A stretch of 64,000 bases of DNA from Labyrinthula sp. Ha (taxonomy: Eukaryota > Sar > Bigyra > Labyrinthulida > Labyrinthulaceae): NCBI GenBank assembly GCA_015227615.1, contig JAALGZ010000018.1, positions 646,152 to 710,151 on the forward strand, in the 5' to 3' direction. Positions 8,266 to 58,647 of this stretch are shown here, piece after piece. The notes below the pieces were generated by a model. That model had not been told where the DNA came from. It saw only the letters and a list, made by a program, of their open reading frames with translations, and did no database searches. Every line of letters begins with the position of its first letter. The first letter of the stretch is position 1. The position numbers and the translations under genes were made by a program.

Positions 8266-8901
8266 ATGAAAACAAGCAAAACAACAGATCTCTTGCGAAA
8301 GATCGATGAACTTGTGACTGGTGTGATTGCAGAAGCATCTCATGTTGTAATATATCGCTTAAATAAGTCACAGGTATATCTAACAAATTTATTAAGATCT
8401 TAGACGTGGGAAAAGGAAGGAATAGAAGGACGATTGTTTATTGCAAAGAGATCAGACTCACCGAACTATGGATTCTACGTTTTAAACAGAGTTGGTGAAG
8501 ATGATTTAGCTCAATATTTTGACAATAAATTCGAATTTGAAGATAAATCTGAATACTTGATATATGGAAACTCTGATGGTATAAGAGGAATATGGTTTTC
8601 AAATCCAGAGGAAAGAGAAAAGATACGAATTGAATTCAAAAATATATGTGATGAAATAAGAAATCCAAAACCGAAAGAAGAAAAACAGAAATCTATTAAG
8701 AAGAAGGAACCAGAACAGAAAGTTGCCAAGGCTTTTAAAAAAGTATCAAAGGCAGTATTGGAGAAAGATGTGGATAAAGAAGGATTAAGTAAAAAAGAGA
8801 TGCAAGAAGTTCTTCTGCGCTTAGTTAAAAGTGAACGCTTTATTGATCTATTACATGCTGAGTACAAAGCTACTCTTAAGCAAAAGCAAAATAAAAGATA
8901 A
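8266..8901 (+). CDS. DCP1: mRNA-decapping enzyme subunit 1 (DCP1)
   Basis: Two exons, 8266-8373 and 8404-8901, flank a 30-nt GTA...TAG intron and encode 201 residues. DCP1 activates the DCP2 enzyme that removes the 5' cap from mRNA in cytoplasmic P-bodies. Exon 1 supplies the family's N-terminal stretch around ASHVVIYRL, and the exon 2 start restores the typical WEK..IEG.LF..KRS signature (residues 38-52). The EVH1 fold follows to about residue 115, including the conserved GIWF near residue 97. A Lys/Glu linker leads to the C-terminal trimerisation helix (about 162-195, pattern LSKKEMQEVLLRLV...FIDLLH). The second exon alone has no ATG at its start, which is why the intron is needed. The length is short compared with animal DCP1 and close to fungal forms. 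The ATG at 8266 is the only suitable start. Confidence 0.92.
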
Positions 8902-8952
8902 TTTGTTGCTTTTATTTAGGTTTAACTCTTTAAAAACTTAAGCGTTAACAAA

Positions 8953-9504
8953 ATGAAGTTTGTTTTAATTACATTTCTCTTAACAAAGTGTCTTGGCAGT
9001 AAAGAGTATGATGAGTTTGTCAAGATGAAAGATATGGCAAATGAAGATGCTAAGGTGATAAACGATTGGTTAAAGGAACACAATGCTGCTGATATATCCA
9101 AGGAAGTTGACGAGCAAGTGCGAGAGATCACCGAAGATGTGGATGAGAGAATCAAAGCTTTTGATAGCAGCATTGAAGAGAGTAGAAAGAAGTTTGAAAA
9201 TACGATGCAGGAACGACGTGAGAAGGTAAACCAACACTGGAAAGATCTTGAAGAGCGTAGGGTTAGAGACGATGTGGAAGAGGAGGCCTACTTAAGAGAG
9301 CAAAAGGAAGAAGAAGGAGACGATAGTAGGTTTGAAAAAGCTCATGCACATTTTGAAAAGATACAAACAGAAATTGATAGAACTGTGAAGAAAACGATGG
9401 ACTCAGTTGAAGAAATTATGAGACTAGAAGATAAAGAAATGGAGGAGATAGAGAGGGAAGCTGCAATAGAGCAAGAAAATTGGAGACAGAAATATCCTCT
9501 CTAG
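8953..9504 (+). CDS. Secreted or ER-lumenal coiled-coil protein
   Basis: This is a 183-residue protein from an ATG at 8953. The first 16 residues (basic start, then a Leu/Ile/Phe core and a small-residue end) look like a signal peptide. The rest is highly charged, Glu/Lys/Arg-rich and strongly heptad-like, so a long coiled coil with no globular domain is likely. No family is recognised. It lies 51 bp after DCP1 on the same strand. It converges on TSG101, and the two stop codons overlap in the palindromic CTAG at 9501-9504, so neither gene has its own 3' spacer. If the hydrophobic start is not cleaved the protein would instead be membrane-tethered. Confidence 0.8.
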   Translation: MKFVLITFLLTKCLGSKEYDEFVKMKDMANEDAKVINDWLKEHNAADISKEVDEQVREITEDVDERIKAFDSSIEESRKKFENTMQERREKVNQHWKDLEERRVRDDVEEEAYLREQKEEEGDDSRFEKAHAHFEKIQTEIDRTVKKTMDSVEEIMRLEDKEMEEIEREAAIEQENWRQKYPL

Positions 9505-10643
9505 CTCTTGGTTTGTAAATTATATATTTTATTTGCCAGAGCTTTATGCTTGAACTGTTCTCTTGCTAGTTTTCGCACACTTCTTAAGAAGGAATCTAAA
9601 GAAATTACCTCATCTCCAAGTGCTTTTTCGAGAGCATAAAAAGTATCATCAACGGCATTTATCTTAGAAACTAAGGGAATAAGTTGTTGAGTGTAAGAGT
9701 CTCCTGAGACCACAGCTTTCCTAATGTCTTCCTCAGTCACTTTTTTCACGGGTTTAGTTTGTTCTTCTTCACTTCCAACTTGACTCTTCAATACTCTTAT
9801 TTGTTTCTCCTGTTCCGATATTTTATTTTGAAAACTTAAGCTTTTTTCCAACACTTTTTGAATAGATTGGTTCAACTTTATTTCATTGTCATCAATTTTC
9901 TTTTGGTTTTCCAATTCTAAATTAACCTCCTTTTGTATTTGATTCACTCTTTTTTCCACTTCCACTCGAACTTTCTTAACAAAGTTTTCTTTAACTCCAA
10001 AAGGACTCTGAGAAGGAATAGCTTGTGGAATAGTATTTTGATAGTATCCAGGTGGAGGTTGAGTATAACTTTGTTGATAATAGTTACTATATGCAGGAGG
10101 TTGTTGTTGAACATATCCATATCCTTGTTGTTGTTGTTGTGTTTGTTGATTCCTATTTGCTCTAACAGGAGGAGAGGCTGAAAATACAGCAACACATATT
10201 TCAATAAGTTCCTTAAGTGAAGATTGTGTAGTCCAAGTATTGAGATAAGGTAAATGAACTTTTCCGTCTTGAGCAACATATTCATGATTCTTAGATACGT
10301 GCATAGTTCGTGTTGGTTCTACGTAGACTATAGGTGCATTTGTAGGAAAATGTTCTGGTATCCATAAACCTATTGGAATATTATATTTATTATTTTTATA
10401 AGAGATACCAACAGTACCTGATAATTTGAGTAAAGTATATTGAGTTCCTGTATCTGTTATATACTGACTAGATCCAAGGGATAAGTTATGGAAGGTTTGA
10501 AGAGCATATGATATTTGATTAAAAAGTATAGGATGATTATGTTGTGGATAATTAGGTAGTTGATCTAAGTATCTTTGGATTGTTGATGTGCTGTTGTTTG
10601 TGGCAAAATAATTTGATTCATTGTAGTTTTGATAGTTCACCAT
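9501..10643 (-). CDS. TSG101: ESCRT-I subunit TSG101/VPS23
   Basis: An intronless 380-residue protein with full TSG101 architecture. TSG101 is the ESCRT-I subunit that recognises ubiquitinated cargo and P(T/S)AP motifs on endosomes during multivesicular body formation. Residues about 20-156 form the UEV domain, with the family-like stretch IPIGLWIPEHFP..AP and the P.LNTW region. Residues 164-215 are Gln/Pro/Tyr-rich and contain two PPxY motifs (PPAY at 182-185, PPGY at 197-200), which in other proteins bind WW domains. A coiled coil spans about 218-295. The C-terminal steadiness box (about 304-372) includes the typical Y.LEKAL...I.LD.FL..VR.LAREQF pattern. Its stop overlaps that of the preceding convergent gene. 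Its start lies 125 bp from the divergent TPR gene, so the two probably share a promoter region. Confidence 0.93.
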   Translation of the reverse strand: MVNYQNYNESNYFATNNSTSTIQRYLDQLPNYPQHNHPILFNQISYALQTFHNLSLGSSQYITDTGTQYTLLKLSGTVGISYKNNKYNIPIGLWIPEHFPTNAPIVYVEPTRTMHVSKNHEYVAQDGKVHLPYLNTWTTQSSLKELIEICVAVFSASPPVRANRNQQTQQQQQGYGYVQQQPPAYSNYYQQSYTQPPPGYYQNTIPQAIPSQSPFGVKENFVKKVRVEVEKRVNQIQKEVNLELENQKKIDDNEIKLNQSIQKVLEKSLSFQNKISEQEKQIRVLKSQVGSEEEQTKPVKKVTEEDIRKAVVSGDSYTQQLIPLVSKINAVDDTFYALEKALGDEVISLDSFLRSVRKLAREQFKHKALANKIYNLQTKS

Positions 10644-10768
10644 TTACATTCCTTTAATTACATTAATATACCCAAATAGATATAATTTAACAGTGTTTTT
10701 TAGGTAAATTTGGGCAAGTTAATTAATAGAAAGTAGACGAAAGAAACAGAATTAGAACACAAAGAAAG

Positions 10769-12283
10769 ATGGCGAAAAATAGATTAGAAGACGCATTTCA
10801 AGCACTGCAGAATGAAGAATACAAGTTGTCAGCAGAGTTATATAAAAAATCTATGAATTATCTTACAGGATCAAAGCATTTTGTCTCATTTAACAACAAG
10901 GGTGTGGCGGAGATGAATTTGAAGGACTATTCATCTGCAGCAAGGAGTTTTAAACAGGCCTCTGAAAACAATGAAAAGCATTTTGAATCTCTTCATAACC
11001 ATGCCATGGCTTTAGTTTGCAATAATGATGCTTTATCGGCACTTAAGTCTCTTGATGAAGCTCTTGCTGTTAACTCTAGTTTCTATCCTTCTTTGTGCTT
11101 AAAGAGCCTCATCCTATCCTCATGTTCTGACTTTGAAAAGGAGGACGTGCCTACAATCGCAATAAATCTTTCTGAAAAGTGTATTCAATTAGAGCCTAAT
11201 AACTACTTGGGATATTTTTCTAGAGGTCTCGTTTATCTTCGCTTGAAGTCTTTTGAGAAAGCCCTTTCTTCTTTTGAAGTTGCTGTTTCTAAATATGATG
11301 GAGGTTCTATACCTTCAGACAAGTCCTTAGTGAAAAATATTCGCTCTTGTGTATTAAACCTTGCACTTGAATATAAAAATCGGGGTCAAATTGATTTAGG
11401 AATAGAATATTTGAACAAAGGAAAAAGACTACTAGGAGATGATACTAGTTTGCTATATAACCTTGGAATATTTTATTTCCAAACGGGAAATTTTTCTGAT
11501 TCTCTTATTGCTTTTGAGAAAATCTGTTCATTAAAAGAAGAAACTTTAAAAGAAGATGCTTTGCTAAACATGGGATTGCTTCACATAAAGTTTTCGAGTT
11601 ATGAAGACGCCATTGAAAAACTTGAGGCCTGTATTCAACTAAATCCAAAAAATCAAAGTGCAAGATATAACCTAGCACTATGCTATCATAAGCGTGGTGA
11701 AAATAGAAAAGCCTTTACGAACTTTAAAATATGCTCTGAGTTGAATCCTAATAATACTCATGCTCTTCATGGAAAGCAAATGCTTGAACTATCTTACAGT
11801 TTTGAACAAGTTCCTGAAGTGGCACCTGCTTCTGATCTCCAGTTGCTTTTGAGTCAACCGGGAGAAAACTTTACCCTAGACTCTACCTCTGAAGCTGCTG
11901 GTTTCCTGCCAGATTTGGAAGTTGAATCAAAGGAGGGAATTGAACTTTCCAATGCCGTGATGGATCTCGATCTTGATCAAACAGTGGGTGAGAAACCTAG
12001 TTCCCAATATCAAACTCCGTTGCAAACCTTTTCAAATGAGAGTAACTTTGAGACAGCTGTTGACGCTACAGAAACAGTTGAAGTTGCAGTAAAAGTATAT
12101 TCTATAGAGGAGCTTAAAAACAGAAAAGCTGGAAAAATTGTTCTAGATGGCGTTCTTCCAGAATTTCCAGAAGAATCGCTGACTGATGAAGCCTTTGAAA
12201 AAGTTTTTGCAGTTACAAGAGAAGAGTTTAACATTTTGGCTGATGAAGAGAAGTCAAAGAAACGCGCAGAAGTTGGAATTTGA
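10769..12283 (+). CDS. TPR protein with a C-terminal villin headpiece
   Basis: An intronless 504-residue protein. Residues about 5-335 hold tetratricopeptide repeats, which form a superhelical protein-binding scaffold. Recognisable repeat signatures include A..FEKALSSFE, AL.NMGLLH.KFSSYEDAIEKLE and ARYNLALCYHKRGE. Residues 340-440 are acidic and probably disordered. Residues about 441-504 match a villin headpiece: an N-terminal YSIEEL subdomain, then the core helix with Phe476, Phe480 and Phe487 at the family's exact spacing (F-x3-F-x6-F), and a Lys-rich end. The headpiece normally binds F-actin. Here the usual Trp of the last helix is absent (DEEKSKKR in its place), so actin binding may be weakened or altered. 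The combination suggests a scaffold docked on actin, which is an inference. It is divergent from TSG101. Confidence 0.85.
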   Translation: MAKNRLEDAFQALQNEEYKLSAELYKKSMNYLTGSKHFVSFNNKGVAEMNLKDYSSAARSFKQASENNEKHFESLHNHAMALVCNNDALSALKSLDEALAVNSSFYPSLCLKSLILSSCSDFEKEDVPTIAINLSEKCIQLEPNNYLGYFSRGLVYLRLKSFEKALSSFEVAVSKYDGGSIPSDKSLVKNIRSCVLNLALEYKNRGQIDLGIEYLNKGKRLLGDDTSLLYNLGIFYFQTGNFSDSLIAFEKICSLKEETLKEDALLNMGLLHIKFSSYEDAIEKLEACIQLNPKNQSARYNLALCYHKRGENRKAFTNFKICSELNPNNTHALHGKQMLELSYSFEQVPEVAPASDLQLLLSQPGENFTLDSTSEAAGFLPDLEVESKEGIELSNAVMDLDLDQTVGEKPSSQYQTPLQTFSNESNFETAVDATETVEVAVKVYSIEELKNRKAGKIVLDGVLPEFPEESLTDEAFEKVFAVTREEFNILADEEKSKKRAEVGI

Positions 12284-15200
12284 ATACTTCTGGACCTTAT
12301 TTTGATGTTATTAGAGCTGTATATTCACACAACCACATGGGGTACAATAAGAGAAGTTGGGGTTTCGGTGGTGTTTTTTTCGTGAGAAGTTAACTTTAAC
12401 TTTTGGTTCCACATTTGTAGTATTTCAGGAAGATATGTTTTTTCAGGTCCACTCCTTATTCTTGATTACATGTCAGGGGCATTGATCTTACTCTACTTGT
12501 TTTGAAAATCCATTTTATTTTCTGAAGTTATCTTCTGTTATCTATTATTGCAATTAATACATATTGCTCCCGAATTGCTTACAAAGATGTACTATGGAAA
12601 CAGCGAAAAAACTAGAATGAGTCGTACTCTCTTTTTCAGTGCGTGGTATTGAGTGTATTCTTTCTTTTCAATCTTTCCCTAACTAAGTTCTGTCAGCTAT
12701 TGACGACAAAATTATTGTTCTATTCTTACCATAAAAATCTTTTAAATACAGAGATCTTCACCCAACCTGAACTGGACTCTCAAAAGGCTATGTTTAGTAA
12801 TACTTCACATTTCACATCGAACCACGTCATCACCTAAGAATACAATATGGCGTTACCAAGACTTTTGTATTCTTTCTTCCAGTGGAAGTGGTCGGGAATC
12901 GAGAAGTGAACTATTATCAGGAATTCTATGAAAACCTACAGGAAGAGTCCGAATTTTTATGTGGGAAACGGGAAGACATCCCAGGAAGCCACTCTCAACC
13001 ACAATTCCTGCTTTTTTTAGTACTCACTGAGTCCACAGTTCCTTTAAAACCGTCTACTTAACAAAAAAATCATCCATGCCTCTATAAAATTCCACATTCC
13101 GTCTATTTAAAGATTATTTTCTCTCTACAATGTATCATATCATACCCCACCTACGCCTCACATTTCAGGGACCTCCAAATGTCTCTAATATAGTAAAACG
13201 CGTGTAAAACTTATGCAGTAGGTTAAAATCATCATCAGGCTTCCAGTGCTGATTGCTCCTTACGGCTGAAATAAAATCCAAACTCTGTTGACGCTGAAGA
13301 GGAGTACCGCTCTTTTTTTCCGAGAGGAAGACTTCCCATAGTATGCCTCAAGACACTTCCTTGGCTCCTAAGCATGATGGAGTTCCTGGTCGTTTCTATT
13401 TAAACAATAGATTCTAAAACATATAACCCTCTTCCATGAAATAGGGAAAATAAGGTGACAGGTTCATACCTAAGAAATTGAGCGCTATAAAGCCCTCTTT
13501 CACCTATTTTCTAGACTTCAACTATATCAAAATATCGTTCGGAAGGGTGCTAGATGGAACAGACCATCTCTTAGTGGAGGCTTGTGATGCCTACCTATCC
13601 TAATGAGGATAATCCAAGAGAGCTCTAGGTTCTCCCACTTCGCTTAAGTTTACCCCTCTTTTGTCTCACCACGCAAGTCTGCTAAGATCTGGTTGAGTTC
13701 AAACTATGAAACTGTGTTGTTCCTACTCTACTTCCCAAAAAAACTGCAAAGAGATAATCCTTATCCTATGAACGTAGTAAATTTGATTTAGTGCAAGCAT
13801 GGCTAGATATATCCTTTTTCACCCATGGATGATCACTTTCCCTAAAGCTAAATTTAGATTGCTCCTGCTCAATGCTTGACTGCTATTTTGCTTTTTTATC
13901 TACTATATTCTTGCTTTCATTTTTATCAACAATATTTACGTAATTATGAAAAGGGATGCTTCGCCATTAGTAGACTTCATGGGCCGAGGTCTATAGCTTT
14001 GAGATAGCTTTTCGCAATTATAACTCGGGAGAGTTTGGTGTTCAAGACAAAGAATCTTATATTTTGAAAAGAAACACAGATTTTTCTCTAAATATTGCAC
14101 ATGGAAACAATAAATATACCATTGCAGTAAATAATTTTTCTCTCACACCCAAAAAACTTTGAATTTTTAAATGCTCAGGAGCACCTTTTACAAAATTCCT
14201 TCGAAACCTTTGATACAAATATAACTCGTAAATGCTCCAAAATCCAAATAAAATATCAAACCTGCTAGAGCACATTTCTGTGCATAAGGTTCCGAGTTCT
14301 TAGGATGGATGAACTGGAGAGTTTTAAACTCCTCCACACCAAAAAAAGACATGTCTCTCATCCGTAGCCTCCCCACTTTCAGGAGATCACAAGTAGCTGA
14401 ATGGGAAATACTAAAATGTAATATCCCACAATCAGAATGGAATACCCATCCATAGATCCTTCAAAAGACCTTAGGTTTGAATATATTGTATTCTTGATAA
14501 TTTTCAATGGGTCTTTATATGTGGTTGATGAGGATCTGTAAATACTTCCCTCTTTCAATACCATCTTCTTCCGCCATCATTGTACCTCTGGAGACTGAAA
14601 GACAGAACGGTTTAATTCTAGAATACAAATGATCTTTCAGATCCGATTATTTTCTTTACCTTATTAACTAGTTGTGAGCAGCAATTACCTGGAATATAGC
14701 CGGCTGACATAATGGGGTTCCGGTTTCTAATTCTGAAGCAATGATTACATCATTCAAGAGCTTGTTTTCTTCCGCGGTTCATCCCTTATTATAGCTAAGA
14801 GCAAGGATAGCTCTGTCACTTAATAGTTGTTATTGGTGAGAGTACTATAGAATTCATCATGCATTGTAGATGCACTCAACACCATGACCCTATATTCTCT
14901 TGGGCACACAAAACTAATCAACTACCCCCTATCCTAAGAAAGCACCGTCTCTGAGCTAATTTATTGGCTGCTTCTATATCCAAGGAATCGTTGTGGATTT
15001 CAAAAATATACTTATCAACTAGTACAGACAAATCACCATAAAAACTTTTTAGCAGCTAATATCTCGTTGGATATATTTGGAATCCTTTCCATTAGACCAA
15101 CAATGCCCATCCCACATTTCCAAATCCCAGAGCTAGGACCTATTTTATTTCATATAGACCTTGATTAAAATAAAATGCTCATGATTCTTCAGACCCACTC

Positions 15201-17667: not shown

Positions 17668-18055
17668 ATATCACTGTGGAACAGTGATATAGACTTGTGT
17701 CTAGAAATATACCGACGACAGTTACTCTTGTACATCTAAGTAAACTTTCTGAGTGCTTATTTATTTAGTACGAGATTATTGAAATGTTTCTGATCTAATT
17801 CATTTGACTATTCAGAGACCTTTATATGGTTCCAGGAGATTTAGGCCGACTATTGGACCTTTTTTAGGTAGCTACTATTATAAAAATTATTCATCTTATG
17901 ACTCACGTATTTTTTACTTAGATGACTCCGAAAAATTGGGCGATAGTCATCTGGAAATATATGCGATATCTCCAATTAGTTTCATAGTCAAAAAACTGAT
18001 AGCTCGATAGAAAAATTTAAGATGGGATAGGTCTTGTTTTCAAATGCCTATCCCA
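17668..18055. repeat. Two hairpin-forming inverted repeats flanking a short frame
   Basis: ATATCACTG (17668-17676) pairs perfectly with CAGTGATAT (17682-17690) across a 5-nt loop. TGGGATAGG (18023-18031) pairs perfectly with CCTATCCCA (18047-18055) across 15 nt. Between them lies an open frame (17804-18010) that starts with TTG, contains several Tyr/Arg residues and ends 12 nt before the second hairpin. No family is recognised. The grouping may be accidental, since 9-bp arms arise by chance in a window of this size. Confidence 0.3.
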
Positions 18056-23880: not shown

Positions 23881-26167
23881 ATGGTAAAACCTGTATCTAA
23901 AATACCTGAAAACAAACCTGATGAGCTTGTTCCATACCTTAAATCTTCTTCCCCTTTCTACATAACCTCGAAGTTTGAGAAACGTAAAATTCTCAAAGCT
24001 GAAAAAGGAATTGGGTCCGATGAACCAACAACACTTATTTCTCTTCTGGAACAAGTTGTAGCACAACAAAAAGATAAAGTAGCATATTCTATAGAATGGC
24101 CAGAACCTTCTCTTCTTGAAGAAAACCAAGTTCCACCTCCTACTCCACTTGATAGTTGGAAACAGTGGACATATAAAGATACATTATATGATGTAAAACG
24201 AGCGGCAAAAAGTTTAATATCACTTGGTTTTAAGTCTAGAGATACTTGTTCCTTATATGGTTTTAATAATCCTTGTTGGGTGTTTGGTTCATTAGGAGCT
24301 ATATGTGCAGGTGGAATATTTAATGGTATGTATTCTACAGATAGTATTAAACAACTTATTTATAAATCAAAAGTATCTGGAACTACAATAGTTATTGTAG
24401 AAGAAGAAAAACATTTAAAAAATTTTGTTCAAGTATCTAAAGAATATTCTGGTTTAAAGTCTATTATTGTATGGAAAGAAGTAAAAGAGTTGAATAAATA
24501 TAGAAAAAAGAATTCAACTCTAACTATCTTAACTTGGGAAGAATTTCTCTCTAAAGGAGAACAGGTAAATGAAGAACAACTAATAGAAAGAATAGATAAT
24601 ATAAATCCAGAAGAATGTTGTGTTCTTGTATTTACAAGTGGAACAACAGGTAATCCAAAAGCTGTTATGCTTTCTCATGATAATATAACAACACAAATAA
24701 AAGGTTCAACACAACTAGTAGGAAAAACAGCACTTTCTAAGCCAGTTAGAATAATTTCATATCTTCCAATGTCTCATATAGCTGCTTTTACTATGGATAT
24801 TCTATCTGTAATAAGCATTCCATTAGCAAGTATTTTATTTTTATATTATTTTTAGTTTAGGTAATAAACCTTGTACAGTATATTTTTGTCGAAGTTATGA
24901 TCTTAAATATGGAAGTCTTCTTGCAAGATTAAAACAAGTTAAACCAACAATATTTTTTGCAGTTCCAAGAGTGTGGGAAAAGTTTCATGAAGCTATTATA
25001 GCAAAAGCACCTAAATCTGGACCCACTTCAAAAGTTTCAAAATGGGCGAAAAATAAAGTATTAAAGAGTCAAAAAAATAAACAACTTGGTAAAACAGGAA
25101 AAAATCCATTATTTATATCTTTTGCAAAATATATTATGCGTGCTGCTAGAAAAAAAATTGGGTTTGAAAATGTTGCTTTTGCAGCAAGTGGAGCAGCTGT
25201 ATTAAAAAAAGATACTTTTGAATTTTGGGCTTCTTTAGGAATATATATTTGTGAAGCATATGGAATGAGTGAGTAAAAATATTCAATAATTTATTATTTT
25301 TTTAGGTGTTCTGGAACTGCTACAACTACAACAAATATATATAGACAATGGGGTACTGTAGGACCAGCTATTAAAGGAACAGAAGTAAAAATACTTAAAC
25401 CATTTGAAGAAAACAAACAAGAATGTGAAAAAGTACCAAGTATTATATTTGAAAAAGCATATTCTTCAACTGCTTCTATTCCTGAAAAATATCATGGAGA
25501 AATATGTTATAGAGGAAGACATATCATGCTTGGTTATTGTGCAAATCCAGATCTTGGTATAGAACATGTAAAAGAATTAGAAAAAAAGAACTCTGAAACT
25601 ATTGACAAAGAAGGTTGGTTACATTCTGGAGATAAAGGTGTAATATCTGAAAAAGGTATGTTGAAGATTACAGGTAGATATAAAGAATTAATTATTGGAG
25701 CAGGTGGTGAAAATATTGCTCCAATACCAATAGAAGACGATTTCAAGGCTAAATGTTCTGCTTTATCTAATGTTGTTATGATTGGCGATGGAAGAAAGTT
25801 TAATGTTGCTCTAGTAACACTGAAATGTGTTGGGGCTACTGGAGAAAAACCAGGTACAAATGAACTTGCACCAGGTGCAGTAGATTATGGATCTTCTGGA
25901 GTTAAAACTGTAGAAGAAGCGTGTAATTCAGGAAAGTTTATAAAAGAAGTTGAGAAAGCTTTGGAGAAAACAAACTCGAACGGGGATGTGATTATCAACA
26001 ACACGTTTAAGATTCAAAAGTTTACTATTTTACCTTTAGATTTGAGTGTTGAAACAGGAGATTTCACCGTAACTCAAAAATTGAAACGAAGTGTAGTTAC
26101 TGAAAAATATAAAGATGTTATAGAAAAAATGTACCAATCTAAAGAAGTGTATGTTTCTTATCTTTAA
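23881..26167 (+). CDS. Long-chain acyl-CoA synthetase, bubblegum (ACSBG) type
   Basis: Three exons (23881-24829, 24861-25272, 25306-26167) encode 740 residues; the introns are 31 and 33 nt. The enzyme activates long-chain fatty acids to acyl-CoA through an acyl-AMP intermediate, using ATP and CoA. Seen motifs are the P-loop-like TSGTTGNPKAVML (about residue 252), LPMSHIAA, VPRVWEKFHEAI, the adenylate-binding region AYGMSECSGTAT created across intron 2, GWLHSGDKG, GRYKELIIGAGGENIAPIP and a C-terminal QKLKR. PMSHIAA, AGGEN.APIPIE and the overall length point to the bubblegum subfamily rather than ACSL. No clear peroxisomal targeting signal is seen. Intron 1 ends in two TTTAG acceptors 5 nt apart: the distal one keeps the frame, while the proximal one creates an immediate TAG stop. 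The gene stands alone, with deserts on both sides. Confidence 0.95.
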
Positions 26168-32100: not shown

Positions 32101-32240
32101 ATTTTGTATTCTAATCTTTTGATAAGATAAAGTTAAGGAATTGATTTTTTTCTATTACTCGTGTTATGCTTTTAATAATTATATTATTTCTGTAGTAATA
32201 TGGGCATAATATTACGAATTTCTGTTTTTATTAGAAATCT
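26168..32240. other. Gene-free stretch (6.1 kb)
   Basis: Only short, random-looking frames occur, for example around 27.5-27.8 kb and 30.0-30.4 kb; none matches a known family or extends through small introns. A near-palindrome sits at 31245-31265. The last 150 bp before the transhydrogenase gene are very AT-rich and presumably hold its promoter. No RNA genes or mobile-element genes were recognised. Confidence 0.55.
31245..31265. repeat. 21-bp near-perfect palindrome
   Basis: The arms TTGCTTCCCT and AGGGAGGCAA pair at nine of ten positions (one G-T wobble) around a single central base. It lies about 1 kb upstream of the transhydrogenase start. No function is known. It may be a protein-binding site or chance. 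Confidence 0.3.
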
Positions 32241-35200
32241 ATGAGAAATTTCAGCAGGGCCTTTTCTGGCAAAGTCAAGGAACTAAATCTGAAGAGAATG
32301 AAACTTGCTCAAAACTATCTTCCTTACCTTGGAAAAGGATCTATATATATTTCAAAACGATACCTTTCAGCACATATTGTCATATTAAATGAGGTGAATG
32401 GCATGGAAAAAAGAGTAGCTGTTGTTCCTGAACATGTAGAAAAGCTACGTTCAAAGGACTTTACAGTTTCTGTTGCCAGTGGTGCTGGAGTACAAGCTGG
32501 ATATTCTGATGAAGCATATAAAACAGCTGGAGCTAACATAGTATCAAATAATTCAGACATTTCTCTTTCTGCTTCTGACTACAAGAATATTATTGTTCCT
32601 TCTCTATCACCTATAGAACAAGTAGACTTCCTTGAGACAGACAAAACCCTTTCCTTTATATCTCAATATGGTTTTTCTTCTAAAGATTCTGTTCTTCAAA
32701 AATACTCATCTTTTCCACACTTAAATGTTATAAATCTAAACCAATTACTTCGAACTCTCTCCAGAGGACAAAACTATGATGTCATGAGTTCACAAGCTAA
32801 CCTTGCTGGATATCGAGGTGTCTTAGAAGCTTCTTTTCTGTTGGATAGACCTTTTTCTGCTATGAGTACAGCTGCTGGTAGAGTAGCTCCAGCAAATGTA
32901 CTTATTGTTGGAAGTGGTGTAGCTGGTTTAGCTGCAATACAAACAGCCAAGGCACTAGGAGGAGTTGTTAAAGCTTTCGATGTGAGATCTGCTGCAAAAG
33001 AACAAGTGGAGGCCATGGGTGCACAATTTTTGGATTTTCAAAAAGCAAGCGGAGAAGGTTCTGGTGGATATGCTAAGGAAATGGGTGCTGACTGGTTAAT
33101 TCAAGCACAGGATTTTCTTGCCCCTCATGTATCCAAGTCTAATGTTATTGTTACTACTGCTCAAGTTCCAAATAAACCTGCCCCAAAGCTTCTAACTAAA
33201 GCTATGTTTGAATCTACCCCTGAACAATGTGTTGTAGTAGATTTAGCCGCGTCTACTGGAGGTAATGCAGAGTTTACTAAATTGGACACTGTAGAAGATT
33301 ATAATGGAACCAAAGTTATTGGATATTCTCTTTCTAGTATGGCTTCAAGAATACCAGGTACGAGTTCGAAGTTATATTCGGGAAATGTAACTAATCTTAT
33401 TCTTGATATGGCAAAGGAAGGAGAATTTGTAGTGGATGAGCATGATATCGCTGTTAGTTCTATGCTAATGGTCAAGGATTCTAAAGTCTCTGCTGATTTT
33501 ATTCCTCCTGCAGATCCGACTCCAAAAAGGGTTGAAGGAATTGAGAAACTTCCGCCAACTGAGGATGAAATTAAGTCTAACACCTTTAGGCAGGCTGGTA
33601 TGCTGGGTTTAATGGGTATCGGTGGTGTTACGGCGGCTAGTGCAGTTCCCTCTATGGGGTTACTTAGTTCATTTGTATTGAGCACTTACTTGGGAAGTCT
33701 CTCGGTAAGAGGTGTAGCTCATGCTCTTCATAGTCCTCTCATGAGTATAACAAACGCAATTAGTGGTATGACTGTTGTGGGTGGACTACTTCAGCTCCCT
33801 GCTTCTACGTCACCTGCAACAGCATCTCTTGCTTTAGGCGCTATCGGATTAAGTGCAGTCAACTTGAGTGGAGGATTCTTAGTTACAAAGAAGATGTTGG
33901 ACATGTTCAAGAGAAAGGATGATGCCCCTGAATTTTTTCAGTACTACTTGCTACCCCCAGCAGCAGTTGGTGGCACTTATCTTGCTGGCCTTGGGTTTGG
34001 TCTTGATCTAACACCGAGTATTGCACTCGCATCAGGTGTTGGTTGCATAGCAGGAATTGGTCTTATGTCCAACCAGCAAACTTCTAGAATGGCTCACTAT
34101 GTTGCCCTTGGTGGAGTAGGTCTTGGTCTAACTGGTACTCTTGTTCAAATGGGACACATCTCTGCACTACAAGGTGGTGGTCTTGTTGGAAGCCTTGGTA
34201 TTGGTGCAATTGCAGGACAATATATTGCGAATAGAGTGGGTCCAACTCAGCTTCCTCAAGCTGTGGCTGGATTCCACTCCTTAGTTGGAGTTGCTGCTCT
34301 ATCTACTGCAGTGAACGATTTTATGCTTCATGGATCAGAAGGATCCATGTTTCATTCCAGTTCCCTCTTCATGGGTGCTTGGTTAGGTGGAATGACAGCG
34401 ACTGGTAGTGTTGTTGCTTGTGGAAAATTAGCTGAATGGAACTGGATGCCAAGCAAACCACTCGCCCTTCCCGGTAGAGATATGATGAACGTTGGTATGG
34501 GACTTGGCTCAGCTGCTTCGTTGGCTGGTTTTGTTACCACCAAAGATCCAAGTGTAGCTGCTGCATGTCTAGGAACTGGAAGTGCTCTTTCTGGACTTCT
34601 TGGTTTACACATGACTGCAAGTATTGGTGGGGCAGATATGCCTGTTGTTATCACCCTGCTGAACAGTTATTCTGGTTGGGCTTTGTGCGCAGAAGGGTTT
34701 ATTCTTGACCAACCTTTGTTAACCATAGTGGGTGCTTTGATTGGTAGTTCTGGAGCCTTCTTGACCAAGATTATGTGCGACGGTATGAATAGAAGTCTAC
34801 CTAACGTAATCCTTGGGGGTTTTGGCTCTGATGCAGGTGCTATATCTGCTCCTGGTGAGGATCACCTACCCCATACAGAAGTGTCTGTAGATACAACTGC
34901 AGAAATCTTAAAGGCTGCTGATAAAATATGTATAATTCCTGGATATGGACTCGCTGTTGCACAAGCTCAGAAAGATCTAGCAAGCATTGCACTTGAACTT
35001 GCTAACCAGGGAAAAACTGTGCAGTTTGCAGTTCACCCAGTGGCTGGCAGAATGCCAGGGCAGCTCAATGTTCTTCTTGCTGAAGCTGGCGTTCCATACG
35101 ACATGGTATTTGAGCTAGAAGATGTGAACCCAAACATGGAAGAGGTAGATGTATGTTTGGTAGTTGGTGCAAATGATACTATTAATTCTGCAGCTGTAGA

Positions 35201-35396
35201 TGATCCTAATAGTGCAATAGCAGGTATGCCAGTAATCGAAGTCTGGAGGGCAAAGAACGTAATTGTTTCGAAGAGATCGGTAGCTTCTGGATATGCAGGT
35301 GTAGATAACCCAGTATTTTATAAACAGAATACAGATATGCTCTTAGGAAGTGCAAGTGATACTTGTGCAAAACTTAGAGTCGCAGTTTCTGAATAA
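32241..35396 (+). CDS. NNT: Proton-translocating NAD(P) transhydrogenase, single chain
   Basis: An intronless 1051-residue protein. It transfers hydride from NADH to NADP+ driven by proton return across the mitochondrial inner membrane, supplying NADPH for biosynthesis and redox defence. The first ~43 residues are Arg/Lys-rich without acidic clusters, fitting a mitochondrial targeting peptide. Domain dI (about 45-400) has the RG.NYD...SQANLAGYRG region (about 175-193), GSGVAGLAA (about 224-232) for NAD binding and GEGSGGYAKEMG. Domain dII (about 450-840) is a series of Gly/Ala/Leu-rich membrane helices. Domain dIII (about 860-1051) has PGYGLAVAQAQ (about 899), GRMPGQLNVLLAEA and GANDTINSAA for NADP. 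The order dI-dII-dIII is the animal type, not the permuted type reported for Entamoeba and Eimeria. It converges on the thioesterase gene, 48 bp away. Confidence 0.97.
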   Translation: MRNFSRAFSGKVKELNLKRMKLAQNYLPYLGKGSIYISKRYLSAHIVILNEVNGMEKRVAVVPEHVEKLRSKDFTVSVASGAGVQAGYSDEAYKTAGANIVSNNSDISLSASDYKNIIVPSLSPIEQVDFLETDKTLSFISQYGFSSKDSVLQKYSSFPHLNVINLNQLLRTLSRGQNYDVMSSQANLAGYRGVLEASFLLDRPFSAMSTAAGRVAPANVLIVGSGVAGLAAIQTAKALGGVVKAFDVRSAAKEQVEAMGAQFLDFQKASGEGSGGYAKEMGADWLIQAQDFLAPHVSKSNVIVTTAQVPNKPAPKLLTKAMFESTPEQCVVVDLAASTGGNAEFTKLDTVEDYNGTKVIGYSLSSMASRIPGTSSKLYSGNVTNLILDMAKEGEFVVDEHDIAVSSMLMVKDSKVSADFIPPADPTPKRVEGIEKLPPTEDEIKSNTFRQAGMLGLMGIGGVTAASAVPSMGLLSSFVLSTYLGSLSVRGVAHALHSPLMSITNAISGMTVVGGLLQLPASTSPATASLALGAIGLSAVNLSGGFLVTKKMLDMFKRKDDAPEFFQYYLLPPAAVGGTYLAGLGFGLDLTPSIALASGVGCIAGIGLMSNQQTSRMAHYVALGGVGLGLTGTLVQMGHISALQGGGLVGSLGIGAIAGQYIANRVGPTQLPQAVAGFHSLVGVAALSTAVNDFMLHGSEGSMFHSSSLFMGAWLGGMTATGSVVACGKLAEWNWMPSKPLALPGRDMMNVGMGLGSAASLAGFVTTKDPSVAAACLGTGSALSGLLGLHMTASIGGADMPVVITLLNSYSGWALCAEGFILDQPLLTIVGALIGSSGAFLTKIMCDGMNRSLPNVILGGFGSDAGAISAPGEDHLPHTEVSVDTTAEILKAADKICIIPGYGLAVAQAQKDLASIALELANQGKTVQFAVHPVAGRMPGQLNVLLAEAGVPYDMVFELEDVNPNMEEVDVCLVVGANDTINSAAVDDPNSAIAGMPVIEVWRAKNVIVSKRSVASGYAGVDNPVFYKQNTDMLLGSASDTCAKLRVAVSE

Positions 35397-51779: not shown

Positions 51780-52076
51780 TTTGCACCTCTACGTTTGTTC
51801 CACTCTCGCGCAGCACTTGCTCAGATCGATTTCTGCCTTGAAGTCAGTTGGTGGTTTGTTGATCGTTATCAAACACGTTTCAATAGTTTGTTTAAATCAT
51901 GGCCTTGGGTTCATGAGTGTAGGAGTGCAAAGGCCGACCTCGTTGAGGACTTCTTCCGGCGTTGGGATAAGTCTTGAGCGAGTCTGCCTGAATCTCGCTA
52001 CGATGATGAGAGTGAAGTATTTTCTAAGTATTGTTTAGGGAAAAGGAATACACTCAGCAATGTTGTGGATCCTTAA
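51780..52076 (+). pseudogene. GC-richer, CpG-rich relic of a possible coding sequence
   Basis: This frame is open for 98 codons apart from one TGA (51975-51977), which a single C-to-T change of CGA could explain. It stands out from its surroundings by higher GC and many CpG dinucleotides. The translated segment is rich in Trp, Arg, Asp and Phe (for example SWWFVDRYQTRF and VEDFFRRWDKS), unlike the short random frames elsewhere in the desert. No family is recognised. It could be a fragment of a transferred or transposon gene, or a chance patch. No start, intron or domain boundary can be defined. Confidence 0.22.
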
Positions 52077-52701
52077 TGAGGAACTCATTGATGGATTTGT
52101 GTTACAAAACTAAGTTTTGAGGATCCTCAAGAGTTTCATAAGTTACTTTAAGTAAGTTTAGATTTTAGAATCCTCAATTCCTGAATGAGGAATTTCTCTT
52201 TGTCTTGAACCTTAGTTGATTCAACAAGGAAAAAGGAACTGCTGAAAAGGATGAACGTGATGGCACTAATTGAAAGCTTATACCAAAGTATTTGTCTTAT
52301 CAAATGTGTTCATCCAATCAAGGTGGTAAAATTCAAAGATGTGCTGCAGCTTCAGTCTTCTAAGTTCTAACAGCTATTTCAAACCGTCAACTGTATTCTA
52401 TGTGTTTTCTAAAAGATATACATATAAAATTTATATAATCATATTAATTCTCACATATAGTAATTAAAGGGTTCCGGTGGACTTTATTGGAACATGTATA
52501 GTAAAAATAGCCGTAGTTTATATAAGTAAATCTTCCAATAGAAAAATTTTATTGTAACTCATTTTTATATCGTATAAATTATACTTGTATTATTCCTGGG
52601 TGTAAATTTGCTGAATAATTTTTAACTGAAATTTGTACTAAGCAATTCCAAACTAACAGCTCAAATCAGAGCACCATAACAAAAGACTGATAATACGCAG
52701 T

Positions 52702-54548
52702 ATGTTATTGATAAATATTTTTTTTATTTTACACTGCTTTGTATTCATAAACTCACAAGAACCAGAGGATAGATTCTTGGCTCCTGTTACGTACATCTTA
52801 TAAAGTATACTTAATATAGAATCAATGTCTGTGAAAGTTGTTGTGAAGAAGCGTTTTCTACCTCAGAAGATATAGAGAACTGTAAAGATGAGGGTTGTAA
52901 CAGACCAACAGGTGACTCAGATGGGTGTACAAACAATAATGTTGGGTGTGAAACTGGAAGGGACTTTCTTTTTATGGGAAAAACCAGAATTGACGGACAG
53001 GTACAATCCTGTGTTCAAACAAGTAAACTCTAAATCTAATATTATTATATAGATATTGGTGGTATTTTGGAAACTATAAGTTTGGTTTTTCCTACTGATA
53101 TATCTGCTGAAAAAATAGAATACTGTGGAGGTGACGATAACACAGCTGATTTTTCTTGCTGTGATAGGTTTAATAGACTTGATACTGTTGACTCTGGTTT
53201 TGAAGATTTTTCATCAGGAGCTTGTGTTGTAAAATACTAATTTATATTTATTTTTTAGGATGCATGTAAAACTCCTGAAAGTGATTGTTTTGAGTTTTCA
53301 GGTACAAGAGATAGATTTGGTTGTATGCTTGCTAAAGATTTACTTACTTCCACAGACCCTGAAAACTCTGCTAATCTTAGAGGTGAGTTATTAGAATGTG
53401 TTGGAGACGGTGATAGTAAAACAACACAAACAGTACCTACTAGTACACCTACATCTTTTCCTATAGAACCTACTTCTTTACCTAGTGGAGAACCAACTCA
53501 AAGTACCCCTTTTCCTACAAATAGTCCAACTCAGTCTCCTTCAGTTTCTCCAACTTTATCTCCTTCTTTATCTCCTACTCTCTCTCCTTCAATCTCTCCT
53601 TCTTCAAAACCAACTTTTTCACCTTCTCAAAACCCAACTACAAGTGAACCAACTACATCACCAGAAATAGGTATTACAAATAATCCTACTAATAGTCCAA
53701 CTCAAAACCCAACTTTTAGTCCTACGGTTCAACCTACACCTTTACCTACAAATATACCTTCAACTTCTCCATCTTCGCAACCAACACAAAAACCAACTTT
53801 TAAACCTACAAGAAGTCCTTTAACAGATGGACAAACACATAGTCCATCAATAACTGATACTACAAATACACCTGAAGAGGAATCTACTCCTATAGATATA
53901 ATGATATATGTTGTAGGTTCACTTGGGCTTATATTAGTTTTACTTCTCTGTTGTTTTGGAATACTTTTAGGACAAAAAAATAAAAGAAAAAGATATATGA
54001 CAAATAGATATGGTAAAGTTAATGGTATATCTTCTGGTTCTACTGGAAAGTCAAATACTATAACTTTGCAAATAGAAGTTCCTGAAGGAACAAATATAGA
54101 TCCCAGTAAACCAGAAACACTTGTTAAAACTTTATTAACTCAAATTGAAGTACAAAGTGGTGATCGTGGTATAGGAAGTAGTAAACCTTCTGTATTAAGC
54201 TCTTCTCAAGAGAATGGAAAACCTGTGTATCATAGTGGAAGTTCTCCACAGTCATTTTTTTCTGAAAGAAGTTCAAATACTGAGTCTATTCCACCACCTC
54301 CTGGTTTAGATATTCCTTCAACTGAATATCGAAGAGAAGTTGCAGCTGGTATATTACACTCTCCTTCACAAAATCAACCTATGAGATCTGTTGGTCCTTC
54401 TGTTAAATCAGAACAAGAAAATAGTAGACCTAGTTTTTTAAGTACTGAGGATAGACAAAATAATATTAGAGCTCCTTTTCCAGATACTCTTCAACTTGAA
54501 AAAAAATATGCCAATGAAAGTTTAGATACTTTAAAACCTGATTTCTAG
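52702..54548 (+). CDS. Type I membrane protein with Cys-rich ectodomain and Pro/Thr/Ser-rich stalk
   Basis: Four exons (52702-52790, 52820-53022, 53053-53228, 53259-54548) joined across introns of 29, 30 and 30 nt give 585 residues. Exon 1 encodes a signal peptide (about residues 1-18: a run of I, F, L and V ending NSQ). Exons 2-4 encode a Cys-rich ectodomain (about 20-205, at least 14 Cys) of no recognised fold. Residues about 212-366 are a low-complexity stalk of SPT/NPT/KPT units, likely heavily O-glycosylated; such stalks are typical of stramenopile surface proteins. A transmembrane helix (about 370-394) precedes a KRKR stop-transfer signal and a Ser/Pro-rich cytosolic tail with a PPPPG motif that could bind EVH1 or profilin. 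A cell-surface or cell-coat role is likely. It lies 53 bp before another membrane-protein gene on the same strand. Confidence 0.87.
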
Positions 54549-54601
54549 TATAGTAAGTTTATTAAGTAGTTTAAATCCCACGTGTCCAGTACGTTTAAAA
54601 C

Positions 54602-56476
54602 ATGTCTGAGCAAAAAAATAAAGTAGCACCTTCGTCCTTTATAGTTACGTCTGGAGTAGGTACAAGTCAAATAGGAGGTTCACAAACACAATTTTCTAAA
54701 GCTACAAGTTTTGAATCAGGTAAAGGAAGTCCTTTAACAAAATATTTGAGTAAAGCTATACAGAGAAAATTATTATCAGCATATAATTTTTTATTCCTTA
54801 TAATATGCTGTTACTTAGTTACAGAAAGTACAATGTTTGTAACATTAGGTACACAGCTTCAACTATCAGATCTTTATTTTGCAGATGCTACTATCTTACA
54901 AAATACTACTGAAACTTATGGATACAATCTTCATAAGATTAGTTTATTCAAAGCTATTAATGATTTGGGAAGTGAGGTAAACTTAAACTCAAAAAAAATA
55001 ATAAATGAAGATGGAGATAGATATTTTTATTTAGACACTGAACTCGGTACTTTCTTAGGAATAACTAAATATGGTGTAGAAACTGCTATCTTAACACCTC
55101 ATCCGTGTAGTTGTAATAATGCAGGAGAAGAATATTCAGGGATAGGAATAAACCATTGTGTAGGAAATGAAGGGATATGTACTTTAAAATGTGCAAGAGC
55201 AATTGAAAACTCACCAATTTATGATATAGATATTAAAGGAGAAGAAGCTGCATGCGAAGTATCAGAATATTTTAGAATAAAGAATAGTCTTGGTTTTGGA
55301 ACAACATATACTTCACAGTTAGTGAAAAGCATCAAATATCAAAACGGCTTTAGAGTTCAACTTGAAGTTGAGTTAACTTCTTTCAGTAAGTCTAATGCAA
55401 ATAATATATTTCCTTGGCAAGATATAATACGTCTAATTCTTACTATTAGAATATTTTATCTACTGATAAATAGACTTGCTGTTCTCCCAACAATATACAA
55501 AGGAATAAAACTCAAATCAAACAGACTTGTTATAAGATCAGACTTAGCTGGAGGATTAATCACTGCACCGGTATTACAAAATCTAGCTCTAGGACTATTT
55601 GTTGTTGCAAATGCGCATAAATACTTATTTCTCTTAGGTTCTTCGCACTCAATAAATGGTATTGTCAAGCTTCAAATGGCTCTTCAAATAGGTGTTGTAT
55701 CTGCATGGTTTTTAGATATAATAGCAAGAGCAGCTGGTACACACTGGAAACTTACAGGTACAATGATATATTTTTCTTCCTTATTTGCTCAACTAGTATG
55801 TCAAGCCTTTATGAGAGAACAAGCTATAAATGAGCAAAAAGGTTTAGGTGTTGTATTTGTTAGGGAATGTAGTTTTGATGATATATCTCTCCCTTGTACT
55901 ATTGCAGATGGTGCTGGTTTAAGTGGCCTTGAAGTATTTAATTTAGTTTTTTTAAGGCCAGCAGTTGTTTCAACTTTATTATTACTGAGTGCAGAAGTAA
56001 TATGGTTTTTATTGAGTAACTACAAAATGATCTTGAAAAAAGCACAAGAAGGAAGTCAAAACACAACCATGAGTGTGACTAAAAACAGAAAACTTAAGAA
56101 AGTGTCAAGATATGAAAAAAGTTCTTTATATCGAGGACAAGCTTTAAGCGTATTTTCGAAAAATTGGGTTGCTCCAATAAAAACACCGTTTGGGGTATTT
56201 TATACTATATCAACAATGGTGGAAAATAATTCTATTTTGTGGGGACCTTTATTAATAGAAATGGATTATTTACTTATTGCAAACATTTTAGCCTGGACAA
56301 AAGGACCAGAATATGTTATTAGAGTCTTGATAACGACTAGGAGATATATAGCAGTTCTTAGTGCAGAACATTATCTCGTGCCAAAAAAGGAAAATGGAAC
56401 AAACATTCCAGAGTATGCTTTGAACTATGACATAGATATAAAAAAAGGGGTTATTAATCCTATGCCTGTAAAGTAA
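54602..56476 (+). CDS. Multi-pass membrane protein with a large Cys-containing loop
   Basis: An intronless 624-residue protein. The first 57 residues are polar, Ser/Gly/Thr-rich and cytosolic by prediction. The first transmembrane helix (about 58-80) is followed by a loop of about 190 residues with clustered cysteines (169, 171, 186, 193, 197, 218). Further hydrophobic segments lie at about 272-298, 316-345, 355-376, 382-403 and 450-472. A second non-cytosolic loop with two Cys (423, 432) precedes the last helix. The C-terminal 150 residues are soluble, with a basic patch (about 490-505). There is no transporter or receptor motif I recognise. It is probably a lineage-specific membrane protein. 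It follows the PTS-rich surface protein by 53 bp, and its stop lies 18 bp from the convergent mS23 gene. Confidence 0.85.
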   Translation: MSEQKNKVAPSSFIVTSGVGTSQIGGSQTQFSKATSFESGKGSPLTKYLSKAIQRKLLSAYNFLFLIICCYLVTESTMFVTLGTQLQLSDLYFADATILQNTTETYGYNLHKISLFKAINDLGSEVNLNSKKIINEDGDRYFYLDTELGTFLGITKYGVETAILTPHPCSCNNAGEEYSGIGINHCVGNEGICTLKCARAIENSPIYDIDIKGEEAACEVSEYFRIKNSLGFGTTYTSQLVKSIKYQNGFRVQLEVELTSFSKSNANNIFPWQDIIRLILTIRIFYLLINRLAVLPTIYKGIKLKSNRLVIRSDLAGGLITAPVLQNLALGLFVVANAHKYLFLLGSSHSINGIVKLQMALQIGVVSAWFLDIIARAAGTHWKLTGTMIYFSSLFAQLVCQAFMREQAINEQKGLGVVFVRECSFDDISLPCTIADGAGLSGLEVFNLVFLRPAVVSTLLLLSAEVIWFLLSNYKMILKKAQEGSQNTTMSVTKNRKLKKVSRYEKSSLYRGQALSVFSKNWVAPIKTPFGVFYTISTMVENNSILWGPLLIEMDYLLIANILAWTKGPEYVIRVLITTRRYIAVLSAEHYLVPKKENGTNIPEYALNYDIDIKKGVINPMPVK

Positions 56477-56494
56477 AAACTTAAAAAACTCTCT

Positions 56495-56942
56495 CTAGTT
56501 ACCCTTAACACTTTCTTTAGAAGACTCCCATAGTTTATTCTCTGCAGCAGTCCATTTTTCAAATCTGTCTTTTGCCGAAATAACATCTTGAACAACATCT
56601 TCAACTTCTGCATTTTCTTTGGCTAAATTTGTTGTTTGGTTTAAAACTGTGGTGTAAGCTTCTTCTTCCGATAGCCCCTCCGACATTAACTTAGCCTGTT
56701 TTGAAACAAAAATAGAAGCGGGCAGTTCATCATATTTCACAGAGGTTACAGCCCTTTTTTTATAGTCTGGGTTTTTCTTCATATATGTTCTACATTATAA
56801 AAAGAAATATTGAGTACCTGAGAAGTTTATCTTCAAGAAAGACAATTTGTTTTAGTTTTGATCTATTAGTTTCTAATGTAACTGGTGGTGTTTTTATGAA
56901 AGGATCATACCATTTAGGTTTAGAAATTACTCCTTTCGCCAT
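56495..56942 (-). CDS. Mitochondrial small-subunit ribosomal protein mS23
   Basis: Two exons (56942-56818 and 56789-56495) around a 28-nt GTA...TAG intron encode 139 residues. mS23 belongs to the body of the mitoribosomal small subunit. The joined protein shows the order known for the mS23/Rsm25 family: an N-terminal KPKWYDP..KTPP segment, then LKQIVFLEDKLLR.YMKKNPD, a mid region P.S.FV..Q..LM.EGLSEEEAY and a charged helical C-terminus. The second exon alone has an in-frame ATG and could pass for a 95-residue protein, but exon 1 supplies the conserved N-terminus in phase. The assignment rests on the family pattern from memory; the family is weakly conserved. The N-terminus starts with MAKG and is not obviously a cleaved presequence. 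It converges on the multi-pass membrane-protein gene, 18 bp away. Confidence 0.78.
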
Positions 56943-57675
56943 CAAATCTACCAATGAAAATGATTTAAAGAATACTATGGACTTGGTTAAGTAACTTGGA
57001 TTGTCCTTTCATTTTTTAGATATGTGTGATTATATAGTAATACACTATTAGGTTATTTGAAAGTTTATGACTGATGGTTTTTATCTCTATTCATGATACA
57101 CTTCGTTAGAAGGTTTTCTTATATCTCATAAAAACGCTTAGTCAAGGAAATCTATCCATTTAAACCAATATAAATTTTAAAATTATGCAGGACTAAGTGT
57201 CCAGGAATATTAAATTTTCATTCTGTAGATGAAGAACTCAGTTTGTAACGAACTTGGTTAACTGATCAGACTTAGCACGCTTAACCTGTGTACAAGCATT
57301 TATATACCAATAATCAAACGGTTGATTGTCAGGATAAAAATTATTATTTACAAGAAAATGGAAAAAATATGAGGTATGGACCCTAGTAGGTTGCAATGCT
57401 TTACTGCATACCAACAATCATTCTTCCAGAAAATGTTGACTAACCCATGTTTACACTGTAAAACGAACATCACTCAGTACGTCGAAAAAGGCGCATGATA
57501 ACGCTATGACTTGTATCCTGATACGATTAATTTTTTTTTTGGAAACATAGTTGGTTTCTCGTAACGATGGAGATTCTGTAATAAAGTGAAGGCTATGCAT
57601 TTAGCAAACATACTATCGTTTAAGAAATAGAAAACTTGCTATTATTTTCACAAAATTCTTCTATATTTTTGAAAG
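56943..57675. other. Intergenic spacer between mS23 and ZIP11
   Basis: A 733-bp stretch with no supported gene on either strand. It should contain the mS23 promoter and the ZIP11 3' end. It has a T10 run near 57531. No motif repeats of note are seen. Confidence 0.5.
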
Positions 57676-58647
57676 TTAACCTAGAGAGACATCCATAACC
57701 ATCATAACTACAAAGCCACTTATAGCACCCCAAGAGGCACAAAGTCTATTTCCTCTTGCATGACTTTCAGGAACAATACTGTCTAATACAACAAAAATCA
57801 TAGCACCAGCAGCAAAACCCAAAGCATATGGAAGTATTTGAGTAACTTCTTCAACTAGAGCAGCACCAATCAAACCACCAACTAACTCAACTGAACCACT
57901 TAGTTGTCCATACATAAAACTCTTATGTTTTGATATACCTAATCTCCTCAAAGGAAGACTAACTGCTAGACCCTCTGAAATATATAATACATAAAATGAA
58001 TACCTGGAAAGTTTTGAAGACCTATACCAAGAGCTAACACAGAAGCTTCTGAAAAACTACCTGAAGGATTTCCAAAAGCTACACCAACTGCAAGACCTTC
58101 TACAAATATAAAACACCGAAGAAATACCTGGGAAGTTGTGTAGCGTTAAACTCAAAACCAATAACAAAATACGCCTATATGAATCTGCATATTTTGAAGA
58201 AATATCTGCAGAAACAGGGATTTGACCTTCTTTGGGAATGCTCATTTTTCGTTTTCTCAGCCCTTTATTCTTACCTTTAACAATTTGAGTTTTCGTGTTT
58301 AGATTTTCCAACGTCTTGATTTCAGTAACGGAGGGTTCAGGAAGAAATATATCTCCAAAATATATAATAATACACCCAAACACAAATCCTATTGTTGGTT
58401 CCACAAAACTATCAGAGGCTTCAAATGCTGGTTCCAGCAGAGACCAATATGACGCAGCTAACATAACTCCTCCAGAAAAACCAAGAGCAAAATCTAAAAC
58501 CAAACCTTCTTTTTTCTTACTAAGGTTTTCAGGTACCAGATACACTAAAGCAGAACCAAGTGCTGTGACAAACCATGTAAATAAAGTACCAAGACCACCC
58601 TGTACTACAGGAGGATAGTCAACCACTGTTTCGTAAACACTTTGCAT
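57676..58647 (-). CDS. ZIP-family zinc transporter, ZIP11 (SLC39A11/GufA) type
   Basis: Three exons (58647-58128, 58099-58004, 57974-57676) with introns of 28 and 29 nt encode 304 residues. ZIP proteins move zinc or related metals into the cytosol. The N-terminus has [21 protein letters not shown], then [20 protein letters not shown] variable cytosolic loop (about 105-150) has no His-rich run. The two metal-binding helices are [14 protein letters not shown] and [13 protein letters not shown]. Both introns fall inside the two NFPEG motifs at the same phase, splitting the Glu codon. Next come [25 protein letters not shown] and the ending [14 protein letters not shown], nearly identical to animal ZIP11. 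The start is placed at the ATG at 58647 because the frame further upstream begins with GTG. An out-of-frame five-codon uORF and AACGTT palindromes lie just upstream. Confidence 0.95.

Follow-up and report, generated by a model that had tools for sequence, protein, structure and literature searches.

How does a spliceosome find introns of about 30 nucleotides (nt), and how much of the signal lies in their length? This question is raised by a 64,000-nt stretch of DNA from Labyrinthula sp. Ha (the window), which forms the terminal part of the 710-kb contig JAALGZ010000018.1 (C64, positions 646152-710151) in assembly GCA_015227615.1 (50.84 Mb, 153 contigs). A first-pass annotation of the window reported nine introns of 28-33 nt, attributed their uniform size to strong selection and proposed that each is recognised as one unit. 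The intron, small nuclear RNA (snRNA) and U6 results given here are all read from DNA sequence, as are the intron lengths and ends and the snRNA sequences on which their interpretation is built. Together they point to GT-AG spliceosomal introns that are probably held near 30 nt genome-wide and recognised as a unit, with spacing as part of the signal and a small contribution from U6.

Ultrashort introns in the window

The nine introns are real, with the coordinates and lengths originally assigned; each starts with GTA, ends with AG and restores an open frame when removed. Four have a single GT-AG solution of at least 12 nt between the flanking peptides. These are the second acyl-CoA synthetase intron (ACS2, 33 nt, 25273..25305, + strand), which raises the AMP-binding score, the first intron of a PTS-rich membrane protein (PTS1, 29 nt, 52791..52819, +), the mS23 intron (28 nt, 56790..56817, - strand), whose spliced protein matches MRP-S23, and the second intron of a ZIP transporter (ZIPb, 29 nt, 57975..58003, -), which is also found by a gene model. 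The remaining five each have one alternative GT-AG solution. The DCP1 intron (30 nt, 8374..8403, +; alternative 42 nt) restores both the frame and the DCP1 domain, and the first acyl-CoA synthetase intron (31 nt, 24830..24860, +; alternative 49 nt) again increases the AMP-binding score. The second and third introns of the PTS-rich protein are both 30 nt (53023..53052 and 53229..53258, +; alternatives 42 and 33 nt), the third being in the gene model as well. All three introns of this protein were identified by frame restoration only. The first ZIP intron (28 nt, 58100..58127, -; alternative 31 nt) raises the ZIP score; it was left out of the span first given for the set, which ended at 58003.

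Splicing increases the Pfam score of most of the domains involved. The ZIP match rises to 108.0 bits from 39.9 and 36.4 for two unspliced open frames, AMP-binding to 183.7 bits from 119.0, 30.0, and 16.3 for three unspliced frames, and DCP1 to 100.9 bits from 72.1 for exon 2 alone. AMP-binding_C_3, the C-terminal domain of acyl-CoA synthetase, shows no gain (40.3 unspliced, 37.2 spliced). Spliced mS23 matches MRP-S23 with 24.2 bits (cut-off 22), a scan made on the spliced form only. When all dinucleotide pairs were tried at 26-35 nt, GT-AG fitted nine of nine sites while the other 255 pairs fitted a mean of 1.4 and a maximum of 6, a lenient control as sites and anchors were picked knowing that a GT-AG solution existed.

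An ab initio codon-periodic Markov model allowing introns of any length was rejected, as true introns were rare in its output and spurious joins numerous. After retraining with 26-35-nt introns it predicted seven in the window, comprising four of the nine known introns and three that are disbelieved. With introns of up to 300 nt it predicted 14; three of these belong to the known set, and most of the others either connect neighbouring genes or are antisense. No believable long intron came out of either retrained run for the window.

Intron size beyond the window

The sample was extended with Cpn60/TCP1, kinesin, and myosin head genes, giving 50 sites in total. A six-frame profile search of the assembly, in which genes turn up as single exons, produced 19, 30, and 71 matches to these families, respectively. 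Stretches were retrieved at exon junctions, interior stops and four truncated kinesin matches. Junctions were solved between flanking peptide anchors, and any upper limit on length lay far from the 28-33-nt range. GT-AG ends restore the frame at 49 of the 50 sites; the other, KIN88a in L027, is undecided among six GT-AG solutions and was excluded as too ambiguous, leaving 49 introns.

The size class extends well outside the window, as 47 of the 49 introns measure 28-33 nt (mean 29.68, standard deviation (SD) 1.37). Twelve are 28 nt, 11 are 29, 10 are 30, nine are 31, four are 32, and one is 33 nt. The uniformity claimed from the window therefore holds, although the range is not absolute given two longer introns. 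A single GT-AG solution exists for 21 of the 47, and all 21 fall within 28-33 nt. Less certain choices of length are KIN66b (28 or 25 nt), CCT66 (30 or 27), PTS3 (30 or 33), CCT121a (30 or 39), KIN91a (30 or 51, with weak homology), and MYO74 and MYO66 (31 or 34, with further solutions for both). The dinucleotide control, equally lenient on 40 sites at 26-35 nt, gave 39 fits for GT-AG against a mean of 7.0 and a maximum of 25 for other pairs. Apparent long gaps in the match tables mostly turned out not to be long introns: L021 holds a 31-nt intron plus an insertion, L022 and L051 one 29-nt intron each, L025 two short introns, and L052 and L054 no intron.

Splice signals

Donors in the 47 short introns follow AG|GTA, and positions +4 to +6 add little signal. 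On the exon side, A occupies -2 in 30 of 47 and G occupies -1 in 28. At +3 there are 42 A, three T, and two G. A GTA start is thus universal in the window, as originally described, and is found in 42 of 47 introns overall. Base counts are T18 A13 C8 G8 at +4, T18 A17 G8 C4 at +5, and T27 C10 A5 G5 at +6. G at +5 (8/47) does not differ clearly from G in the intron interior (p 0.059). Typical donors carry +5G at a frequency of roughly 0.75, far above that seen here. The donors are also without ATATCC, the U12-type consensus.

The acceptor is TAG in 44 introns, CAG in two, and AAG in one. The lack of a long pyrimidine tract noted for the window set does not carry over to the wider sample, where pyrimidine runs reach 18. 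Upstream of the acceptor, A is raised at -9 (23/47, p 0.0009) and -8 (21/47, p 0.03). None of the branch motifs tried in the 47 introns (TAA, TTAA, CTAA, TGA, CTNA, and others) is clearly above shuffles, and the best, CTNA, was equalled by 32 of 500.

snRNAs and the U6 box

The U1 and U2 pairing regions are canonical. Three U1 loci match at 66.2 bits, slightly below the cut-off of 69.5, and all three begin with ATACTTACCTG. Three U2 loci score 112.6-117 bits, above the cut-off, with the branch region GUGUAGUAUCU in the aligned copy. These genes are arranged in pairs about 4.5 kb apart; C96:200293-222920 carries two such pairs in inverted orientation, and C135:72694-77477 holds another that is equally spaced.

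The sole U6 locus found is a full-length covariance match (model positions 1-105, 59.9 bits, cut-off 44). Its AGC catalytic triad region GAUUAGCAUGG is present, a TA-rich stretch precedes the gene, and its 3' end has a T-run. The predicted fold is plausible and no more stable than shuffles (z -0.87). The box that pairs with the donor in other species reads AUAGAGA in place of the family consensus ACAGAGA. When up to two mismatches are allowed, AYAGAGAAGATTAGCATGG occurs in the assembly at the U6 locus and at three other places. Two of these, including the only one with ACAGAGA, have flanks without a U6 match, and the third (C116) was not read. Two sources place U6 A43 opposite donor +4 (PMC13326754, PMC10581693); if so, we infer that the changed base faces +5. 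According to PMC10581693, the ACAGA positions are 100% conserved in a set of 240 fungal and outgroup species, and a 2012 paper on Giardia gives ACAGAGA for all known U6. Limited literature searches, judged from listings, turned up no described case of an AUAGAGA U6, which does not show its absence from print.

Human METTL16 is reported to recognise UACAGAGAA in U6 (PMC7927073). The U6 here does not contain this sequence, and loss of METTL16 was therefore predicted. This prediction was refuted by a METTL16-like gene on C88, a candidate METTL16 with a Methyltransf_10 match of 145.5 bits and an NPPF motif. If this candidate is METTL16, the missing preference for A at +4 (13 A, 18 T) would depart from the yeast trend described in PMC10581693.

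Constraint on length and intron definition

An indication that length itself is constrained comes from kinesins. Six paralogs share one P-loop intron site, all in phase 1, with introns of 29, 28, 30, 29, 28, and 28 nt. Their sequences are no more alike than those of other introns, with a mean pairwise identity score of 0.304 (15 pairs) against 0.334 (SD 0.069) for 1066 other pairs. As these introns keep length and not sequence, length outlasts sequence, which indicates a constraint on length.

One kinesin gene contains a 22-nt exon (IFAYGQTG; L034 646-667, 0-based) between a 28-nt and a 29-nt intron. An exon of this size is generally understood to be too short for exon definition. Its position between ultrashort introns favours recognition across the intron, as read from this gene structure. 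The initial interpretation is therefore supported in part. The exon agrees with recognition of the intron as one unit and the kinesin paralogs, with unlike sequences of 28-30 nt, back a length constraint, which may reflect strong selection on size or a deletion bias that halts at the minimum spliceable length.

A model for recognition and its alternatives

In the proposed mechanism, U1 and U5 would read AG|GU, and U2 would dock on a weak site with its A 8-9 nt before the 3' end. The U1/U5-bound donor and the U2 site would be brought together as a pair across the intron, and it is mainly donors and acceptors about 30 nt apart that would be used. U6 pairing with +4 to +6 would contribute little, and the U6 C-to-U change opposite +5 would fit a relaxed donor requirement. 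It is inferred which RNA reads what, that length serves as a signal, and that donor relaxation is linked to the U6 change. Most introns, if retained, would introduce a stop codon: 35 of the 39 that were tested contain one in frame, among them all 11 whose length is a multiple of three (eight myosin introns are outside this set). Lengths of this kind are not clearly depleted (11/47). In ciliates, in-frame stops are argued to expose retained introns to surveillance (PMC5014332).

It may further be that the U6 change and the disappearance of donor signal from +4 to +6 co-evolved with fixed intron size. Length would then have assumed some of the specificity that U6-donor pairing provides elsewhere, and METTL16 would still modify the non-canonical U6 or serve another target. 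This extension is tentative and is held with less confidence than the recognition of the intron as a unit.

Several observations weigh against intron recognition by length with a minor role for U6. The retention of METTL16, as judged from the candidate gene, is a poor fit with a simple loss of U6-donor control, and the donor is not wholly flat, departing weakly from the intron interior at +4 (p 0.03), +5 (p 0.05), and +6 (p 0.009). Two introns are longer: one of 127 nt in a Cpn60 gene (L020 156-282, -), for which a 103-nt reading is also possible but disrupts conserved protein, and one in a kinesin gene (L037) of 67, 76, 91, or 118 nt. Further long introns are possible upstream of several kinesin matches that begin at profile positions 23-39 and were not followed. 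Where more than one GT-AG solution existed, the choice was made by protein continuity and GTA and was not blind to length. The stop-codon result is likewise biased, since introns of 3n length lacking a stop would tend to escape the search. Over 161.7 kb, raw GTA..TAG pairs at 28-33 nt number 518 against a mean of 469 in other bins (SD 26.6), and AGGTA..TAG pairs 42 against 32.9 (SD 7.1). The GTA..TAG excess is weak, and with introns so sparse the raw spacing says almost nothing. Finally, the removal of the introns from RNA is predicted from DNA sequence, as is the single U6 gene.

The 127-nt Cpn60 intron has near-identical sequences at its two ends, CCTTTTACATTTC at the start and CCTTTTACGTTTC at the end, which are perhaps the trace of an inserted element. 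Comparison with the stretches retrieved from the assembly gave only the self-match and chance-level words of 11-15 nt.

The strongest competing explanation is a passive floor, in which deletions shrink introns to a barely spliceable size and length is not a signal. Such a floor has been proposed for mikrocytids (PMC10245619), and the two longer introns suggest that greater length may be tolerated. For now it explains the size equally well. Apart from AG|GTA and TAG the splice sites hold little information, hence spacing is plausibly a needed signal; this is not decisive. Overall the passive floor is somewhat unlikely. A further reading, in which the AUAGAGA locus is a U6 pseudogene or an assembly error and the assembly lacks a normal ACAGAGA U6, is improbable. 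That only one locus was found, that its fold is no stabler than shuffles and that 18S was not located by an exact primer-site pattern, so that assembly or search may be incomplete, would all agree with such an error. Against this stand the full-length match well above the cut-off, the TA-rich stretch upstream and the 3' T-run, and the only ACAGAGA place found by the pattern search lacks a U6 match in its flanks.

Two other sources of uniform length can almost be set aside. Introners, recently copied intron-like elements, would account for equal length and nothing more. The mutual similarity expected of them is absent, and the dissimilarity of the six same-site kinesin introns argues against a recent burst of copies, which makes this origin highly implausible. 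DNA elements eliminated in development, like the internal eliminated sequences of ciliates, include some of similar size. The elements here have GT..AG ends at 39 of 40 sites and are not TA-bounded, and genes for U1, U2, and U6 are present, so that an origin of this kind is scarcely credible. Recognition of GT-AG introns as units of about 30 nt is thus preferred over these alternatives.

Comparison with known systems

The size pattern alone is already known from systems of the Blastocystis, Paramecium, Stentor, and Mikrocytos type, in which nearly all introns fall in a class a few nt wide at around 15-35 nt. Blastocystis introns resemble those of Labyrinthula in size and in GT-AG ends, more than half of them being 30 bp in ST1, and Blastocystis also has U12-type introns (PMC5608401). 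Paramecium and other ciliates share a narrow size class and stop-rich 3n introns; the mode in Paramecium is 25 nt, in contrast to 28-33 nt with no clear depletion of 3n introns here (PMC5014332). Stentor has GUA donors and a weak branch motif as in Labyrinthula, but its introns are 15-16 nt and its U6 keeps ACAGAGA (PMC9505925). Very uniform tiny introns also occur in Mikrocytos (16-17 nt, PMC10245619) and the Bigelowiella nucleomorph (18-21 nt, PMC6461891). Both of these genomes are strongly reduced, unlike the 50.8-Mb genome here, and the nucleomorph U6 retains ACAGAGA where Labyrinthula has AUAGAGA (PMC6461891).

The donors resemble the AG//GUNNN class of 5' splice sites, in which information lies in the exonic AG and GU and not in +5G (PMC11732430). 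That class is described as one of two per genome, whereas it is dominant in the 47 introns here. In Cyanidioschyzon merolae the ACAGA box of U6 is also naturally changed (cited in PMC10581693), at the central adenosine and not, as here, at the preceding C. Judged by sequence, uniform ultrashort introns and an altered U6 box seem to make a new combination. AUAGAGA is a natural exception to a U6 motif for which PMC10581693 gives 100% conservation. Whether length can bear splicing specificity is difficult to examine when the donor sequence is informative as well. With 30-nt introns, AG|GTA donors, canonical U1 and U2 pairing regions, and an altered U6 box, these contributions become separable.

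Other features of the window and assembly

The window is gene-sparse, with a GC content of 0.30-0.40 in 4-kb steps. It includes an intronless gene for a single-chain NAD(P) transhydrogenase of 1053 aa with fused alpha and beta parts (32235-35396, +). Positions 60798-64000 are filled to the contig end by nine tandem copies of a 352-bp repeat with 97% matches. Elsewhere in the assembly, many of the 71 myosin-head matches are intact and many are short with several stops, which suggests an expanded family with pseudogene fragments. Two near-identical myosin copies, L049 (C75:339360-339800) and L053 (C75:362440-362900), each show two apparent frame changes at the same places, with no intron there; they seem to be either a pseudogene pair or a case of real frameshifts.

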